A DNA stretch of 64,000 nt. Origin: Thalassovita mediterranea (lineage in GTDB: Bacteria; Pseudomonadota; Alphaproteobacteria; Caulobacterales; Hyphomonadaceae). Position 1 is the first letter of the stretch; the number at the start of each line of letters is the position of its first letter. Position numbers and translations under genes: made by a program. Positions 7,734 through 16,393 of the stretch are shown here, piece after piece. The notes under the pieces are model-generated. The model was not told the DNA's origin. It saw only the letters and a program-made list of their open reading frames with translations, and did no database searches. The DNA lies in assembly GCA_019448215.1 (NCBI GenBank), contig CP080408.1:3100001-3164000 (forward strand), read 5' to 3'.

Positions 7734-9167
7734 CTACCCCCAGAGCGGAGGCCGCACCGCCTGCCAGGGCCGCGCCTCTTCCAGCTGCGCCGCCAGCCGG
7801 AACAGCGTACCCTCATCGCCGTACCGCCCGGCAAACATCATCCCCACCGGCAGGCCATTGCCATCGAGCCCCATCGGCACGGACATGGCCGGCTGACCGG
7901 TAAAGTTCTGCGGCGGCGTGAACGGGAACACCTCGGCCTGGCGCTTGTCGACATCGCGCGGCGCCATGTTCACCGGGTCGATCTCGCCCACCCTCGGCAC
8001 AGGCTCGGCCAACACAGGCGACAGGATCACGTCATACGTCTCATGCAGCGACAGGATCTCCCGGCTCATACTGCGCAGCGTCGCCCAGCCTGCCATCGCC
8101 TGCGACCCCGTCAGCCCTTTTGAGCCGCGATAGTTGCGCCATGTCAGCGCCTCCATCTCACCGGCCTCCGGCTCCCGCCCCTTCGCCTCGATCAGCCCAT
8201 CCACCGTCGCTGCAAAGTTGCTACCCGAAACGGCCCGCTGCGCGAGGTAGAGCCGCCGGTAATCAACGCCCAACCCCCGCTCCTCGACATCATGGCCAAG
8301 CGCTTCGAGCAGCTTTGTCGTCTCCTCCAGCGCCGCACGGATTTCAGGGTGCACAGGCCGCCCGCTCGGCGTTTCGGAGTGGAAAGCCACGCGCAGCCGC
8401 CCGACAGGCGCGCCGACCTCCTCGGCATAGGGCCGCGTCTTGCCCGGATAGGCAAAGGGCGCCCCCGGTTCGGGATACCCCGTCGCATCGAGCAGCGCCG
8501 CGCTATCTCGCACACTGCGAGAGACGACATGCTCCACCGTCATGCCGATCGCGGCCGCATCATCATAGGACGAGTTCGGGTTGCGATCGCGCGTCGTCTT
8601 CATGCCAAAGAGGCCACAGCACGCCGCCGGAATGCGGATAGAGCCGAGCCCGTCACTCGCATGCGCCATGGGCAACACGCCCGCCGCCACGCTCGCCGCC
8701 GCTCCGCCGGACGATCCGCCCGTAATATAGTCGGTATTCCACGGGTTGCGGCAGGGCCCGTGAAACGCGCCCTCCGTCGTGCCGGTGATGCCGAACTCAG
8801 GCGTATTGGTCTTGCCGAACAGGTTCAGCCCCGCCTCGCGAAAGCGCCGGGTCAGCGCGCCATCCTCAGGCGCAATGTCATCGCCCAGAAAGCGGGACCC
8901 GCTCGTCTGCGGCCAGCCCTTCACCGGGCTCGCAATATCCTTGATCAGGAAAGGCACACCCCGGAACGGCCCCTCCGCCAGCCCGCTGCCAGACGCCGCC
9001 GCCCGCGCCTCGTCATAGGCCTTGTAGGTGATGGCATTGAGCTTTGGATTATACGCTTCGGCCCGGGCAATCGCCTCTTCCAGAACCTCCAGCGCACTCA
9101 CCTCACCAGAGCGCACCATCCCCGCCAGCGCCGTGGCATCAAGCTCTGCATAATTCTCGATGGTCAT
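7734..9167 (-). CDS. Amidase (amidase-signature family)
   Basis: 477-residue hydrolase of the amidase-signature superfamily, which cleaves carboxamides with a Ser-cisSer-Lys triad. The lysine is in PFLIKDIAS (K76), the cis-serine in the GGSSGG loop (about S153), and the nucleophile in [11 protein letters not shown] (S176). The canonical GGGS turn reads GLGS here, a conservative change. The C-terminal [14 protein letters not shown] is typical. The start MTIENYAEL has AGGAGG upstream (minus strand). The substrate is unknown; it is not a GatA, because no gatB or gatC is adjacent and the C-terminal region is unlike GatA. Confidence 0.9.
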
Positions 9168-9351
9168 TGGCTTTCCTCCTGATCACGCGCCGACCTTCAT
9201 GGGCAGACGCTGTTTTGAGAGGAAGCTTGGCGGAAGTGGGGGACGGCGGCAAGTGTGGGGTTGGTGACAGGCGGAACAACAAAGGTTGCGACTCTGGTCA
9301 ACATCGGTTGTTCTAAATCCTTGGTTTAAGGAACGAAGGCGCTTTAAGTCT

Positions 9352-12300
9352 ATGCAATATGTCCAACTCCAGCGCTCTTTTGGACGACCCGGCAAACAGG
9401 AAGATGATTACTCTTACCTTTTGTATTCCAAGCAGCACACGGGTGAGCATTCTTGGGAGGACCTGCTCAAACATTCGAAGGTTGTAGTTCTTGCCAGTGC
9501 CGGAAGTGGAAAGACTGAAGAGTTTAAAAGCAAGGCAGCGGAACTTCAGGCAAATGGATCATTGGGACTCTTTTTCGCTATAGAAGAACTCGCGGAAATA
9601 CCCTTCGAAGAGTGTTTGCGGCCTGAGCAAGAACGCCTATTCAACGAGTGGCGGTCAGAGGCCGACATCGGTTATTTTTTTCTCGACTCGGTTGATGAGG
9701 CGAAACTCAAGAACCCCAATAGCTTTGTTCGTGCGCTGCGAAAACTCGTCAGGGCTCTCGGCGACCACGCAGAGCGAGCACATGTCTATGTCTCGTGCCG
9801 TCCTTCAGATTGGAACAATCATACGGATTTACGAGCAGTTTCGGAGCTGTTTGAGACTGCTTGCGAACCTATGCCAGAACAGCAGCCAGCTCATCTAACC
9901 GATGATGACCGGGACCGATTACTCATTGAGCCTTTGCTCAAGACCGAAGACTACAATGGCATGGGCGACCAAATCATAAAGGATAACAAATCAGAGAAGA
10001 CAAAAGAGAGCGATCATCAGGGTACGCTGGTTGTCGCGCTTAATCCTCTCAACCAAACGCAACAAGAAATCTTAGCAAGAGCTGTGCTCGATGGTGACCC
10101 GGCGCAATTCCTGTCTGCGCTTCAGCTTCAGGGGTTGGACGCCTTCGCAAAACGTCCCGGCGACCTCTTGGAACTATGCCGCTTCTGGCAGAAATTCGGC
10201 AAGTTTGGCTCACTTCGCGAGATGACCGAGCACAATATTCGCGAACTTCTGAAAGAACGATCACACCGGTTAGATGGTGCCGCGCTTTCCGATGAAGATG
10301 CGTTGAACGGTAGCAAGCTTCTTGCATTGGCAATGGTGCTAACGAAGCGCTTTACGCTTGTTGCTCCTAATCATGACGGAGCCTCATTAGATAAGGACGT
10401 AGCTGACCCTGCCTTGGTGTTGACTGACTGGGCGCCGGCGCAAAGGGAAACTCTGTTGCGGCGTGGATTATTTGCTCCCGCATCGTTTGGCCGCGTGCGC
10501 TTTCAACACCGATCGACCTTCGAATTTCTCGCCGCATGGTCACTCCGTGACATGTTACGAGATGAACGAACCCGCGATAAAATAGAGCGATTGTTGTTTC
10601 CTACCGTTTTCGGCGTCACAACAATCACACCAGAACTTCGACCTATTGCTGCCTGGCTTGCGCATTGGGATGAGAAAATCAGAGAAAAGATTATCGAAGT
10701 TGAGCCCATTGAGCTCGTACGCTTTGGAGACCCTAAATCGTTGCCGCTTGAATCGCGCAAGAAGCTGCTCACTACTCTGTCAAAAAAACACGCTATCGGC
10801 GATGTAAGCAGTACAAATGTTGATGATCGAGCAGTATGGGCATTTTCGGCAACAGAGTTAGCCGATGCCATTCGACAAGCATGGAAAGCCAACCGGCATT
10901 GGGCTTTCAGAACCTTGCTGCTCGATATGATCACGCAGGCAAAAATTGCTAAACTTGCAGATATTGCGAGCGAAGCTGTTGAGCTTAAGGCGGATGGCAG
11001 AGCGCTTATTTTTGGAGGTGTGCATGCTCTGTTAGCGCTGAAAGAAACGTCCCGTCTCCAAAAGGTAGCGTCTGATTTGATTTGCGGAGAATTGACAGAC
11101 GATGACGACACAGCTGCCAGCCTTTGCCTGCTTCTCTATCCAAAATTCTTGTCCACTTCAGATATTGTCACTCTAATCAAGCGGGCGCAAACGCCTAAGA
11201 AGTTTACCACCAGGGGATATAGTTGGCGTATTGTCGAGCTCTTCCGACTTTGTCCTGACCCAGATATTGATGTCTTTTTGGAGGGCCTAAGCTCACTAGC
11301 GTTGATGCGACCTTTCAACGAGGGCTACGAGCGCATTTCAAAGCAATATGGTTATCTGGCTGATCACTTTGTAGAAATTGGCCAGCTGGCCTTGGATCGA
11401 CTGGACGACCCCAAACCATCTAGCGGACTGATAAACCTTTTGTTGGCGAGTGAGAGAAGTTCCGACCGCTCTTCTCTGAAATTGTTTCCAGAGTCTCTTC
11501 CACAAAGAATTAATAAGTTACCAGAGATTAAGAAGGCACTTGTATGGGCGGATGTTGAGGAAACCCGCAAGCGGAGGAGCGAGCAGGACTTAAACGAACA
11601 TCCCCATATCCGCGTACCTATGCTTGTCGGCAGACGGTACTGGAGTTTGGACCTAACCGATGAAGATTGGTTGCGAGCCACGACAACCGATCCGGCGCAC
11701 TCTGCTTACGTCCGCGATACTGCATTTCATTTTTGGCTTCACGTGCTCAGAGCAGGCAATTTATTGGAAGCCCGGAAAGATGAACTCAAGGTCGCAGCCC
11801 AAGGCAATTCTTTGAGAACTGAGTGGCTGAGGCAAGCACTAGCGCCAAAAAAGCAACCCGAATGGGAGAAAGAGGACGAAAGACGTCGCGCCGCCTTCGA
11901 ACGGAAAGAGAAAAAGCGGCTAGGTGAGTCCATAGCGTGGTGGCGTGCGCGAAAGAAAGAACTCGAAGCTCGTGCTCCGATAGCCAACTACTCTGAAGGA
12001 GTGAACAATGAATCGTGGTATTTCTTAGATCACTTATCGGCTTGGTTGGCGTTGAAAAGCAACTACCCCAAGACAAAAGCTCCTCGTACATGGCGAGCGC
12101 TAGAGCCTGTATTCGGAGAACGGCTGGCCAACTTATATTTCAATCACTTCAAGGCTTTGTGGCGCGCAATTCCTCCCAAGCGACCGACATGGCATAACAA
12201 TACTTGTACCACTTATACGGTGCCCGCTTATGCATTCGCTGGGATTGGGATGGAGGCAGATTGCAATCCTAATTGGGCTGCCGGTCTCACTGTCGAAGAA

Positions 12301-13692
12301 GCGAAGCAAGCTGCGCTGCACCTTACGCGCGCTGATGATGGCGCTCCTGATTGGATGCCTGCGCTTCTCTCAGCTCATCCGCAAACGCTTCTTCCCCAAC
12401 TTCGAAGCGAATTGAAGCGGGAATGGTGTTCTCATGCCGAGTGGCCGCATTCTTGGTTGAACTACTTCGCTAATGGGAAAGGTTCGCTCCCTCAGGAATT
12501 AGCTGATCTCGCTATCTCAGTGCTTGTCAATAATGCGCCAGGTAGGTCGGACCGGTGGAGCTATGGGCTCAGAATACTGCAGCGTATTTCTCTAACCCCG
12601 AACCAGTGGCGTCGATTTGAGAAAATTGCAGCAGCTCGAGCGAACGACCGAAGCGCATCTCCAGAAGAGCGTGCGCGACACCTAGCTATTCTTTGCCATC
12701 AAAATATCGACGCATGCGTTGGTGCAATTGAAACTACGCTTGCCGTAGGCACCCCTATAGAGGCGCAGACAGTTTTAGGTCTGCTATTCGATGGAAGGCA
12801 TAGCCGCAGCCTTGCAACCGACACACTAGCTGCAGCGCACGCCACAAGTCTCGAGAAGCTGGTGAGAATGGCCTTCAAATATGTGCGATTGGAAGACGAT
12901 TTACCGATTGAAAGATCTGGCTCAGTAAGCGGCCGTGATTTCGCGGAGGCAGCGCGGGGAACACTTTTCGACGCATTGTATGATAATGGATCACAAGCAG
13001 CATACGAAGCTATTCGGCGTTTCGCGGCAGAGAAATTAGTCGCCAGAGATGAGCATTGGTTCAAGATGCTGTCGAAGCGAATGCTTGAAGGTGTGGCGTC
13101 CCTTGTCGCTTGGTCAGAAGAAGAAGTAAGAGAATTCGCCGATGGCGCGGACTTACCCGCAAAAACCCCAAGCCAATTTTTCCAGCGTATTCGAGCGGCG
13201 GTTCTATCCGTTGTATCTGCGTTTGAAAGCGAAGACGCAACGTCCAAAAAAGTCCTTTTGCGAGCAGCAAAGGAGGACGAAGTTCGCGATTGGCTTATGG
13301 AACGACTAAATTTGCAAGCGAACGGACGTTATACTTGCTTTCGGGAGGCTCAAGTTCACAATGTTAAGCGTCCAGACGTGGTGGTTAGCGCAACGACTAT
13401 GGATAGCCAAGTCGCTATTGAATTGAAGCACTCTGACAAGGGTTGGACCTACAACGACTTATGCAAAGCAATCGATCAGCAGTTAGTCGGACGTTATCTG
13501 CTGCCTGAAAATCGGAGATCGGGTCTGCTGGTCGTTTCTAGGCACAAGAAGAAATTTTGGCGACACCCCTGCGACGGTCGACGAATGAATTTTAGCGACC
13601 TTATCTGTGAGCTAAAAGAGTACGCTAAAACGGTGCAGAGCGGACATGCAAGTACGATTTCGATCGATGTTGTTGGCATCGATTGTACATAA
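9352..13692 (+). CDS. Large STAND/NACHT-like NTPase with C-terminal PD-(D/E)XK nuclease-like domain; candidate defence protein
   Basis: 1446-residue protein. P-loop domain near the N-terminus: Walker A ASAGSGKT (residues 48-55), Walker B FFLDSVDE (109-116) and a sensor-like strand SCRPSDW (148-154), the pattern seen in NACHT/STAND ATPases. About 1000 residues of mostly helical, repeat-like sequence follow, with a highly charged stretch near residue 840-860. At the C-terminus, RPDVVV (D1342) and IELKH (E1357, K1359) form a PD-(D/E)XK nuclease signature, followed by DQQLVGRYL, common in such nucleases. Base composition is clearly lower in GC than both neighbours, so transfer is likely. No partner gene is adjacent. 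An in-frame TTG at 9286 exists; I prefer ATG 9352 because homologue-like sequence starts MQYVQLQRSF. The ribosome-binding site is weak. The defence role is an inference from architecture. Confidence 0.75.
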   Translation: MQYVQLQRSFGRPGKQEDDYSYLLYSKQHTGEHSWEDLLKHSKVVVLASAGSGKTEEFKSKAAELQANGSLGLFFAIEELAEIPFEECLRPEQERLFNEWRSEADIGYFFLDSVDEAKLKNPNSFVRALRKLVRALGDHAERAHVYVSCRPSDWNNHTDLRAVSELFETACEPMPEQQPAHLTDDDRDRLLIEPLLKTEDYNGMGDQIIKDNKSEKTKESDHQGTLVVALNPLNQTQQEILARAVLDGDPAQFLSALQLQGLDAFAKRPGDLLELCRFWQKFGKFGSLREMTEHNIRELLKERSHRLDGAALSDEDALNGSKLLALAMVLTKRFTLVAPNHDGASLDKDVADPALVLTDWAPAQRETLLRRGLFAPASFGRVRFQHRSTFEFLAAWSLRDMLRDERTRDKIERLLFPTVFGVTTITPELRPIAAWLAHWDEKIREKIIEVEPIELVRFGDPKSLPLESRKKLLTTLSKKHAIGDVSSTNVDDRAVWAFSATELADAIRQAWKANRHWAFRTLLLDMITQAKIAKLADIASEAVELKADGRALIFGGVHALLALKETSRLQKVASDLICGELTDDDDTAASLCLLLYPKFLSTSDIVTLIKRAQTPKKFTTRGYSWRIVELFRLCPDPDIDVFLEGLSSLALMRPFNEGYERISKQYGYLADHFVEIGQLALDRLDDPKPSSGLINLLLASERSSDRSSLKLFPESLPQRINKLPEIKKALVWADVEETRKRRSEQDLNEHPHIRVPMLVGRRYWSLDLTDEDWLRATTTDPAHSAYVRDTAFHFWLHVLRAGNLLEARKDELKVAAQGNSLRTEWLRQALAPKKQPEWEKEDERRRAAFERKEKKRLGESIAWWRARKKELEARAPIANYSEGVNNESWYFLDHLSAWLALKSNYPKTKAPRTWRALEPVFGERLANLYFNHFKALWRAIPPKRPTWHNNTCTTYTVPAYAFAGIGMEADCNPNWAAGLTVEEAKQAALHLTRADDGAPDWMPALLSAHPQTLLPQLRSELKREWCSHAEWPHSWLNYFANGKGSLPQELADLAISVLVNNAPGRSDRWSYGLRILQRISLTPNQWRRFEKIAAARANDRSASPEERARHLAILCHQNIDACVGAIETTLAVGTPIEAQTVLGLLFDGRHSRSLATDTLAAAHATSLEKLVRMAFKYVRLEDDLPIERSGSVSGRDFAEAARGTLFDALYDNGSQAAYEAIRRFAAEKLVARDEHWFKMLSKRMLEGVASLVAWSEEEVREFADGADLPAKTPSQFFQRIRAAVLSVVSAFESEDATSKKVLLRAAKEDEVRDWLMERLNLQANGRYTCFREAQVHNVKRPDVVVSATTMDSQVAIELKHSDKGWTYNDLCKAIDQQLVGRYLLPENRRSGLLVVSRHKKKFWRHPCDGRRMNFSDLICELKEYAKTVQSGHASTISIDVVGIDCT

Positions 13693-13748
13693 ATATTGTA
13701 CGCTCTACACTTTCCCACCGTATAGCGCCGCGCCCTATTCTTCCCGCC

Positions 13749-14429
13749 ATGCAGGATACATCCAGCTTTGTGGCGGCGGGTCTTCGGGCTTTGCGCGAAG
13801 AGATGGCCGACCTCGACTTCATGGCGGGCCTCTCATCTGGTGAGGGCGGGCTGGGCCGGCGGCTCTATGCGCAGCTGCGCGCCCGCCTCATCCTAATCGA
13901 GACATTGCTGCGCCGCCTCCTTGTCCTGATGGCGGCGTCCATTGAGGTTTCGATCAAGATGGCCGTCCCGCATCCTGAGCCTGTCGAAGGGCCGGAAGCG
14001 GCGCAGCCGCTATCCGGGACCTCGTGCAGCAATACCGCGCCCACTCAGCCGACACCCACACCCTCACACCCCAAACACCCCCGCAGGCGAGGCTTCCCCT
14101 ACCTCCCCCGTTTGAGAGAGTGCACCCCACCAGGGTCTGACCTTTTTGCCCTCCTCTCGGCCGAGCATTCGGGGCCACGTCCTGCCTTCCGCTCAAAAAC
14201 ACCGCTGGTGCACCGCTACTGCACCATCATGGGTGTACTCCGCCGCCCCGAACGCGCCGCCCGGCGCATGGCCTTTACGCTCGCGCGCCTTCGCACCGCC
14301 GGTGCCCCGCGCCCGCTCTGCCTCGCTCCGCTCAATCTGAAGCGCGCCAGTGAAGAGATCTCTCTCATCGCCGCCACCCTGCCCGAACGCGTCGCGCGGG
14401 CGCTTGTCGGCTGGTATGATACGGGCTAG
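13749..14429 (+). CDS. Hypothetical lineage-specific protein, 226 aa
   Basis: Begins MQDTSSFVAAGLRALREEMAD. The N-terminal third is helical and Leu/Arg-rich (YAQLRARLILIETLLRRLL). The middle is low-complexity, Pro/Thr-rich, and encodes PHPEPVEGPE from a widespread REP-type sequence. The C-terminal part (RRPERAARRMAFTLARLR, then LVGWYDTG) looks like a conserved small helical domain. GC content returns to the high local value, unlike the gene before it. Start ATG at 13749; the ribosome-binding site is weak. I do not recognise the family, and the middle section may be expanded by repeat insertion. Confidence 0.5.
   Translation: MQDTSSFVAAGLRALREEMADLDFMAGLSSGEGGLGRRLYAQLRARLILIETLLRRLLVLMAASIEVSIKMAVPHPEPVEGPEAAQPLSGTSCSNTAPTQPTPTPSHPKHPRRRGFPYLPRLRECTPPGSDLFALLSAEHSGPRPAFRSKTPLVHRYCTIMGVLRRPERAARRMAFTLARLRTAGAPRPLCLAPLNLKRASEEISLIAATLPERVARALVGWYDTG
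13974..13991 (+). repeat. REP-like dispersed element inside a coding sequence
   Basis: CCTGAGCCTGTCGAAGGG (reverse complement CCCTTCGACAGGCTCAGG) is a short dispersed repeat known from many alphaproteobacterial genomes. Here it is read in frame as PEPVEG. Only one copy was found in this window. Confidence 0.6.
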
Positions 14430-14533: not shown

Positions 14534-16393
14534 ATGGAGAGGGACCGAACCGATCTAGCGCCAGGCCTGTCGGAACTGCATGAGCGGTTCCGCCGGATTG
14601 CGCTGCGCGTTGGTCTGGTTGGCCTGCTTCTCGTCGGGGCGGCGTTTTTCGTCTCCGTGATTACCGGCGGCGTGAACGCAGAATCCTACCTCGAAGCCGG
14701 GATTTATACCGTCATCCTCTCGGCGATTGCGCTCTCTGCGCACCGCGATTTCAAGGTCCGCCTCTTCCTGCATGGCGGGCTGACGGTTCTCTTCCTCGCC
14801 TATTGGGCCTTTACCTATACCGAATTCCGGCTGGGCGATATTTCGGTCGATACGCTTTTGTATCCGATCTTCATTCCGGTTTTCATCGCCATCGGCCTCG
14901 ACTACCGCCTCCAGTTTGCCCTCGCTCCGGTGCACGGCGTCATGATGTGGCTGGTGACGCCGCTCTATATCGAAGTCGTCCCCTTCGGCGCGGAAACACT
15001 GGCCCAGCAGCAGGTGCTGACGGCCCTCATGGCCTGTTTTTGTGGGCTGCTCATTGTGCTTCTGGCCCTGGTCCAGATCTCCCGGCAGAAGACGGATGAG
15101 CGACTTGTCTCTGTAATCATTGAGAAAAATCGGCTCGCGACCACTGATCCGCTGACCGGCCTCCTCAACCGCCGCGCCTTTCTCGAAGCGCTGGAAAGGT
15201 CTGTCAGCCAGTATCCGGCCCTGACCCTCGCCTTTATCGATCTCAACAGCTTCAAACCGCTCAACGACCAGTTCGGCCACGCCGCTGGCGACGCGGTTCT
15301 GAAGGCGATTGCCGCCCGGCTCCAGCAGAGCGAAGCGGTCATTTCCGCTGCCCGGCCCGGCGGGGATGAATTCGCCGCCATTATCGATCCGAGCCTTTCG
15401 GCGGCTGAAACCGACAAGGCAATCGCCGATATCTACGCCTCCCTCACCCTCGATGTGAGCTGGCAGGACCGCCTCATCCATGTCGGCGTTTCCCTCGGCT
15501 ACGCCACGACGAGCGGCAAGGACGGCGACCTTCAGGCCTGCCTCAGCCGCGCCGATACGGCAATGAGGCGGGTTAAGGCTGCTGGCGGCGGCTTTGGCCG
15601 GTTCACGCCGGCAATCGACGCTGAAGCGATCTCTGCCTCGCGGCTCGCCATCTCATTTCCTCCAGCCCTCGCCGCGGGTCATATCCGCCCGGCCCTTCAG
15701 CCCGTTGCCGATGCGCGATCGAAGGAAATTGTCTGCCACGAACTCCTCGCCCGCTGGACCTCCTCAACTGGCTCGCGCCAACCGACGCCGAACGAGTTCA
15801 TTCCAGTGGCTGAAAAGCTCGGCCTGATGAATGAGCTTCTCTGGACGACGCTGGACTTTGCCATGCAGCATTGGCCGTCTGAAAGCCGCGCTGTCTCGAT
15901 CAATATTTCGCCTGGCCAGCTGCAGACAAATGATTTTGTCTCAAAGCTCTGCCGCGTTATCGACAGCCACAATTTCCTCACCAGCGACGTGACCCTGGAG
16001 ATCACCGAAAGTGTCGCGCTTCGTAATCTTGCCGCCAATGCTGAGGCGCTCCAGGAAGCAAGACGGGCCGGTATGAAAATCGCGCTCGATGATTTCGGGA
16101 CGGGCTATTCCTCCCTCTCCCTATTGAGCCGACTGCCGCTCGACATGATCAAGATCGACCAGAGCCTCGTTCATGCCGCGAGCCGCAATGGCGACTCTAC
16201 CGAAACAGCGATCCTGCGCGGCGCCCTCCGGCTCTCGCGTGAGCTCGGACTTGTCTCCTGCGTTGAGGGCGTGAGCTCCGAAGAGATCGCGCTCCAGATG
16301 AAGATTTTCGGGGCCGACCAGATCCAGGGATACTGGATCGGCAGGCCCCAGCTCGTCGCTCCGCGGCCGGATGATGTGAAACTGGCCTCGTAA
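14534..16393 (+). CDS. Membrane GGDEF-EAL cyclic-di-GMP signalling protein
   Basis: 619-residue protein with about six N-terminal membrane helices (residues 25-185), then GGDEF and EAL domains. The GGDEF active site is intact (RPGGDEF, GGDEF at 276-280) with FIDLNSFKPLNDQFGHAAGD before it. The EAL domain has ELLARW (E403), NISPGQL, LEITES, DDFGTGYSS, IKIDQSL, CVEGV and QGYWIGRP, so metal-binding and catalytic residues appear present; both synthase and phosphodiesterase activity are possible. The start ATG at 14534 follows GGCGG closely. It is divergent from nothing and convergent with the iron-uptake operon. The ligand of the membrane part is unknown. Confidence 0.93.
   Translation: MERDRTDLAPGLSELHERFRRIALRVGLVGLLLVGAAFFVSVITGGVNAESYLEAGIYTVILSAIALSAHRDFKVRLFLHGGLTVLFLAYWAFTYTEFRLGDISVDTLLYPIFIPVFIAIGLDYRLQFALAPVHGVMMWLVTPLYIEVVPFGAETLAQQQVLTALMACFCGLLIVLLALVQISRQKTDERLVSVIIEKNRLATTDPLTGLLNRRAFLEALERSVSQYPALTLAFIDLNSFKPLNDQFGHAAGDAVLKAIAARLQQSEAVISAARPGGDEFAAIIDPSLSAAETDKAIADIYASLTLDVSWQDRLIHVGVSLGYATTSGKDGDLQACLSRADTAMRRVKAAGGGFGRFTPAIDAEAISASRLAISFPPALAAGHIRPALQPVADARSKEIVCHELLARWTSSTGSRQPTPNEFIPVAEKLGLMNELLWTTLDFAMQHWPSESRAVSINISPGQLQTNDFVSKLCRVIDSHNFLTSDVTLEITESVALRNLAANAEALQEARRAGMKIALDDFGTGYSSLSLLSRLPLDMIKIDQSLVHAASRNGDSTETAILRGALRLSRELGLVSCVEGVSSEEIALQMKIFGADQIQGYWIGRPQLVAPRPDDVKLAS

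Follow-up and report, generated by a model that had tools for sequence, protein, structure and literature searches.

In the canonical Avs proteins, the effector is located at the N-terminus. The STAND proteins of P4-like satellites likewise carry an N-terminal effector in the available text of PMC9122126, and the available text of PMC12169576 states this placement for STAND NTPases in general, giving the order of the bNACHT proteins as N-terminal effector, central NACHT module, and C-terminal sensor. bNACHT25 and bNACHT32 (clade 6) combine, as presented in that text, a NACHT module and a PD-(D/E)XK DNase in one protein, and the N-terminal DNase of bNACHT25 degrades cellular DNA after phage sensing (PMC12169576). 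We analyzed a 64,000-nucleotide stretch of the Thalassovita mediterranea genome (contig CP080408.1, positions 3,100,001–3,164,000; hereafter the window), which carries on its + strand an intact open reading frame (ORF) of 1446 residues (9352..13692; ATG at 9352, stop codon ending at 13692). Whereas the nuclease of bNACHT25 and bNACHT32 is N-terminal, their NACHT module central, and their sensor C-terminal, the product of this ORF has the opposite order. The original prediction, of a single-gene STAND-like NTPase with a C-terminal PD-(D/E)XK nuclease that would be a candidate undescribed defence system, holds with respect to the architecture and the defence reading, but the protein is not undescribed: it belongs, as a divergent member, to a known family, and its layout is unusual.

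That family is represented by NF058534, “NACHT domain-containing antiphage protein HyoA” (NCBIfam release 20.0, June 2026), with which the window protein aligns end to end (residues 6–1446 on profile positions 1–1428 of 1430; E = 5.2e-293, 975.4 bits). The two share their length, the arrangement of an N-terminal NACHT module and a C-terminal PD-(D/E)XK nuclease, and the catalytic residues, all sites being intact in the window protein. The existence of a full-length model of the same architecture refutes the suggestion that no named system has this domain order, and the supposed new system can instead be placed, as one of the divergent branches of an NCBI-labelled antiphage family that the PADLOC library of 2023 misses. 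Because its score is below the HyoA equivalog cut-off of 1200 bits, the window protein is a HyoA-type relative, not a curated HyoA equivalog. NCBIfam also holds a related antiphage family of NACHT domain-containing proteins, EruA (NF058535), to which the similarity of the window protein is only partial (174.1 bits, below the equivalog cut-off of 1000 bits), with the best stretch at residues 220–873.

A FastTree phylogeny of 106 sequences, with two EruA-like proteins as the outgroup, places the window protein in a 28-member clade of the 104 others (support 1.0). Twelve members of this clade were scored against HyoA; three (L008, L016, and L017) are above the cut-off and nine are below it, such that the 1200-bit value does not mark a clade border here. 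Our reading is that the window protein is a HyoA-type relative from a divergent branch. Across 20 named genomes picked for holding a relative, HyoA scores range from 1748 to 949 bits, with 16 over the cut-off and one of the other four representing a split reading frame. A survey of the class found matches in 14 of 385 genomes, of which eight exceed the cut-off and five, besides that of the window, score at most 114 bits.

Searches of the window protein against Pfam, PHROGs, and PADLOC-DB gave nothing significant. The PADLOC search, which had been proposed as a check, found no matching model in the 2023 library, either for the window protein (0 families at E 1) or for any of 31 relatives (0 for 31/31 at E 0.01). 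The open-access literature returned no paper on HyoA and none on a NACHT protein with a C-terminal nuclease; the matches to EruA were to an unrelated E. coli regulator and to other uses of the letters. The available portion of the DefensePredictor work describes NACHT and PD-(D/E)XK systems in E. coli, none of which could be linked to HyoA.

The protein can be divided into a NACHT module with helical/winged extensions (residues 1–480; 9352..10791), a middle region (residues 481–1307; 10792..13272), and a C-terminal PD-(D/E)XK-type nuclease domain (residues 1308–1446; 13273..13689), all on the + strand. The motifs identified in the original prediction are located where it placed them and are near-invariant in a 101-row alignment composed of the window protein, nine database proteins, and 91 locus ORFs, a few of the loci being near-duplicates (L001, the window's own ORF, and the distant L015 were left out); rows with a gap are excluded from the count at each column. 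In the Walker A motif ASAGSGKT (residues 48–55; 9493..9516), Gly53 and Lys54 are present in 98/98 rows, as are Asp112, Asp115, and Glu116 of the Walker B motif FFLDSVDE (residues 109–116; 9676..9699). The SCRPSDW strand is also present as predicted (residues 148–154; 9793..9813), but Arg150 alone is invariant within it (99/99), at what we infer to be a sensor-1-like position. The catalytic set of the nuclease domain, assigned from conservation and the structure model, comprises Glu1332 and Asp1342 (100/100 each) and Glu1357-x-Lys1359 (100/101 each; 13345..13428 for the set), and is followed by Gln1377-x4-Tyr1382 (100/100; 13480..13497).

Two peptide patterns were used to retrieve the loci in this alignment, and because the Walker B strand is one of them, the conservation of Walker B is partly built in; the nuclease residues occur in neither pattern, and their figures are unbiased. 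A database search, in which 7998 candidates were scored, gave 63 proteins, including the window protein, with E values of 0.001 or lower. In a pattern-free alignment of 31 of the 63 (22%–52% identity to the window protein), Gly53, Lys54, Asp112, Asp115, Glu116, Glu1332, Asp1342, Glu1357, Lys1359, and Gln1377 are all invariant. The middle region is the least conserved part of the protein, with mean identities per 100-residue block of 18%–28% over residues 501–1300, compared with 30%–41% over residues 1–500 and 35% over residues 1301–1400. This fast divergence makes the middle region the likely sensor, and it is presumed to be a helical repeat sensor; a HEAT_2 domain was found in 1/31 relatives.

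With only ~47 residues before the P-loop, the window protein has no N-terminal effector domain, and the nuclease motif (residues 1332–1382) is at the far end of the chain. The proposed reversal of order relative to Avs and bNACHT proteins is thus borne out. Avs4 (AVAST) differs in the same respect, since the Avs effector is N-terminal. This reverse domain order, together with the lack of a PADLOC-DB model match, led us to reject a canonical Avs assignment.

Structure prediction covered the N-terminal residues 1–480 and the C-terminus, i.e., the protein outside residues 481–1179. The predicted structure of residues 1–480 matches NLRC4, NOD2, NLRP3, and Avs4, the best matches being NLR/NACHT proteins, which suggests that the N-terminal part adopts an NLR-like NACHT fold bearing the Walker A and Walker B motifs and belongs with the NACHT/STAND NTPases. 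Sequence searches were less revealing: the window protein does not reach the Pfam NACHT model, which only 2/31 relatives match at E 0.01; a search of PDB sequences with the window protein found nothing significant, and a profile of the 31 relatives likewise matched no PDB chain at E 1. The C-terminus is predicted to have a nuclease-like fold, in line with the original assignment, with weaker matches that include restriction endonucleases, Can2, McrC, HamA, Shedu, and NucC. In the model, the aspartate precedes one strand, the ExK motif is inside the next strand, and Gln1377 and Tyr1382 are positioned in the helix that follows the ExK strand.

Family label aside, a defence role is best supported by the site of insertion. 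Comparison by blastn with the equivalent loci of four congeners (L129–L132) delimits a 4.4-kb inserted segment (9266..13706) comprising the HyoA-type gene, as its sole ORF, and ~85 bp upstream, with no counterpart in these four genomes, which have both flanks; homology stops on the left at 9253–9265 and restarts on the right at 13707–13708 in three of the four and at 13855 in L132. The G+C content of the insert (50.1%, versus 60.8% elsewhere in the window) is below that of all 239 sampled segments of the same size. The gene arrived as a horizontal single-gene insertion, and the AT-rich insert is recent. The flanking genes, named by eye, are amidase-like (7734..9167) and GGDEF-EAL-like (14534..16393). 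The amidase is at least 78% identical in six congeners, of which G001, G003, G005, and G006 keep both flanks together and G004 and G020 do not. Between the flanks, G001 has Hachiman HamA (E 2.2e-80) and HamB (E 8.5e-188), G006 has Gabija GajA (E 1.8e-209) and GajB (E 1.5e-125), and G003 and G005 each have one type IIG restriction-modification protein (E 0) together with a shared block of other genes; the corresponding coordinates are 4148–7372 in L129, 4019–7382 in L130, 3787–11523 in L131, and between 4040 and 11563 in L132. The Hachiman and Gabija inserts have a G+C content of 48% versus 62%, while that of G003, at 60%, is not AT-rich. No empty site was observed among the four congeners with both flanks. 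The amidase/GGDEF-EAL site is a hotspot where defence systems replace one another, i.e., a chromosomal site at which close species swap single-gene NLR-like, Hachiman, Gabija, and restriction-modification systems, and the HyoA-type gene is almost certainly a defence gene. The fixed core context that would have spoken against the original prediction is not seen: the gene is present in one of 29 congeners, in a hotspot that holds other cargo elsewhere.

The block common to the two type IIG carriers (L131 3863–7653, L132 7657–11483) is absent from the window and contains, by eye, glycosyltransferase, deacetylase, methyltransferase, and ferritin-like genes. The right border of the hotspot is formed by an ORF (13749..14429; MQDTSSF…) that is conserved in the window and the four syntenic congeners and weakly matches a thiamine-kinase profile (22 bits against a cut-off of 206).

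With a probability of roughly 0.78, we consider the window protein to be an antiphage protein of the HyoA type, an ATP-switched, NLR-like sensor that is encoded by a single gene and activates its own C-terminal nuclease when the cell is infected; the switch, sensor, and effector steps are modelled on the Avs and bNACHT proteins. At rest, the protein would, as for NLR/Avs proteins, be held by ADP as a monomer or small oligomer. A phage product would then meet the fast-diverging middle region, and the NACHT module would exchange or hydrolyze ATP and oligomerize; the NACHT module, its intact Walker motifs, and its NLR fold all point to a nucleotide-switched oligomer. The C-terminal PD-(D/E)XK domains would be brought together or released, and the resulting cleavage of DNA may stop the phage and probably the cell.

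The aligned HyoA relatives, as judged from their sequences, share the order of NTPase first and nuclease last, in conflict with the N-terminal effector stated for STAND NTPases in the available text of PMC12169576. The same layout is apparent in P0062 (1337 residues; 1033 bits, over the EruA cut-off), the only EruA protein inspected, which has a P-loop near its N-terminus and ends in a D…ExK motif, suggesting that the back-to-front build may extend to EruA. We tentatively propose, as an idea that may well prove wrong, that the HyoA- and EruA-type proteins constitute a separate NLR-like class, with the NTPase at the N-terminus, the sensor in the middle, and the nuclease at the distal end of the sensor arm. 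The nucleases might then occupy the outer arms, each pairing with one on an adjacent arm or ring, and the subclade of the window protein could represent a subtype that responds to a trigger of its own. Such a build would preclude the usual mode of activation, in which N-terminal effectors cluster above a NACHT ring.

A McrBC-like arrangement, in which an ATP-driven, restriction-like nuclease itself recognizes modified or foreign DNA and the NACHT module serves as a motor or assembly ring, would also be in keeping with the matches of the C-terminus to McrC and restriction endonucleases. However, NLR proteins are far better matches to the NTPase part than McrB-type rings are, Pfam searches of the window protein and the 31 relatives found no DNA-recognition domain, and the long variable middle suits a protein sensor better; we regard this arrangement as unlikely.

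The horizontal nature of the insert and the occurrence of relatives on plasmids (61/72,556 records) are compatible with selfish cargo or a maintenance function of a mobile element, e.g., the exclusion of rival plasmids. This reading is distinctly improbable, given that the insert holds the HyoA-type ORF alone, without a mobility gene, and that the other occupants of the site are phage-defence systems. A housekeeping DNA-repair or regulatory NTPase-nuclease, conceivable insofar as the PD-(D/E)XK fold serves repair too and archaeal repair nucleases are among the structural matches of the C-terminus, is rejected as extremely improbable given the patchy distribution (absence from 28 of 29 congeneric genomes), the recent AT-rich insert, and the lack of any housekeeping family, which would have spoken against the original prediction, in searches of Pfam, PADLOC, NCBIfam, and PHROGs.

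The gene start is most simply placed at 9352: an upstream TTG at 9286 in the ORF listing is an unlikely alternative, because the relative P0002 begins co-linearly with the ATG. An Rfam scan of 9100–13900 found no RNA gene; a promoter scan gave 0 sites versus 3.2 expected by chance, and a terminator scan 5 versus 6.0, such that neither scan is informative.

The neighbours of wider relatives were tallied at 17 of the 20 named loci (L069, L083, and L093 and their controls were left out), using 135 neighbouring ORFs and, from matched regions of the same contig lying 100 kb or more away, 136 control ORFs. All were predicted with a plain length criterion and compared with PADLOC at E 1e-10. The tally gave 122 PADLOC families near relatives versus 104 in controls, counting families and not proteins. 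Among the best 25 of the 122 are IetA/IetS, type IIG/DrmMI-like, and AriA/Old-like families (two each), and one each of type IV REase, type III and type II methyltransferases, and AbiEi; among the best 25 of the 104 controls are one Gabija pair, five mad3-like families, and two C3a156. With respect to a defence setting of the relatives, this tally is suggestive only.

The gene is single copy in its own genome, and none of the 28 other congeneric genomes has a match. A scan of species genomes gave 297 relatives, of which 80 were kept, from phyla including, as named in the records, Pseudomonadota, Bacteroidota, Planctomycetota, Verrucomicrobiota, and Cyanobacteria, among others. Of the plasmid records with a relative, ten cover 80% or more of the query at a single location. 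The matched stretch holds an annotated insertion-sequence transposase in several plasmids of Burkholderia glumae (among records H5 and H9–H20), such that the relative there looks interrupted. Two phage records, both of Acinetobacter contigs, and three viral contigs also have a relative. A DNA-level search of E. coli with an enterobacterial relative, an insensitive test, matched 3/5426 genomes, in each through a 93-base patch only. The protein under one such patch, WP_205854001.1, is co-linear with the window protein (23% identity) and scores 1419.5 bits against HyoA, over the cut-off. The HyoA-type gene that encodes it (L160 2516–8713, NZ_CP148583.1), annotated only as a NACHT domain-containing protein, has a DEAD/DEAH helicase gene on one side and a SIR2 gene on the other.

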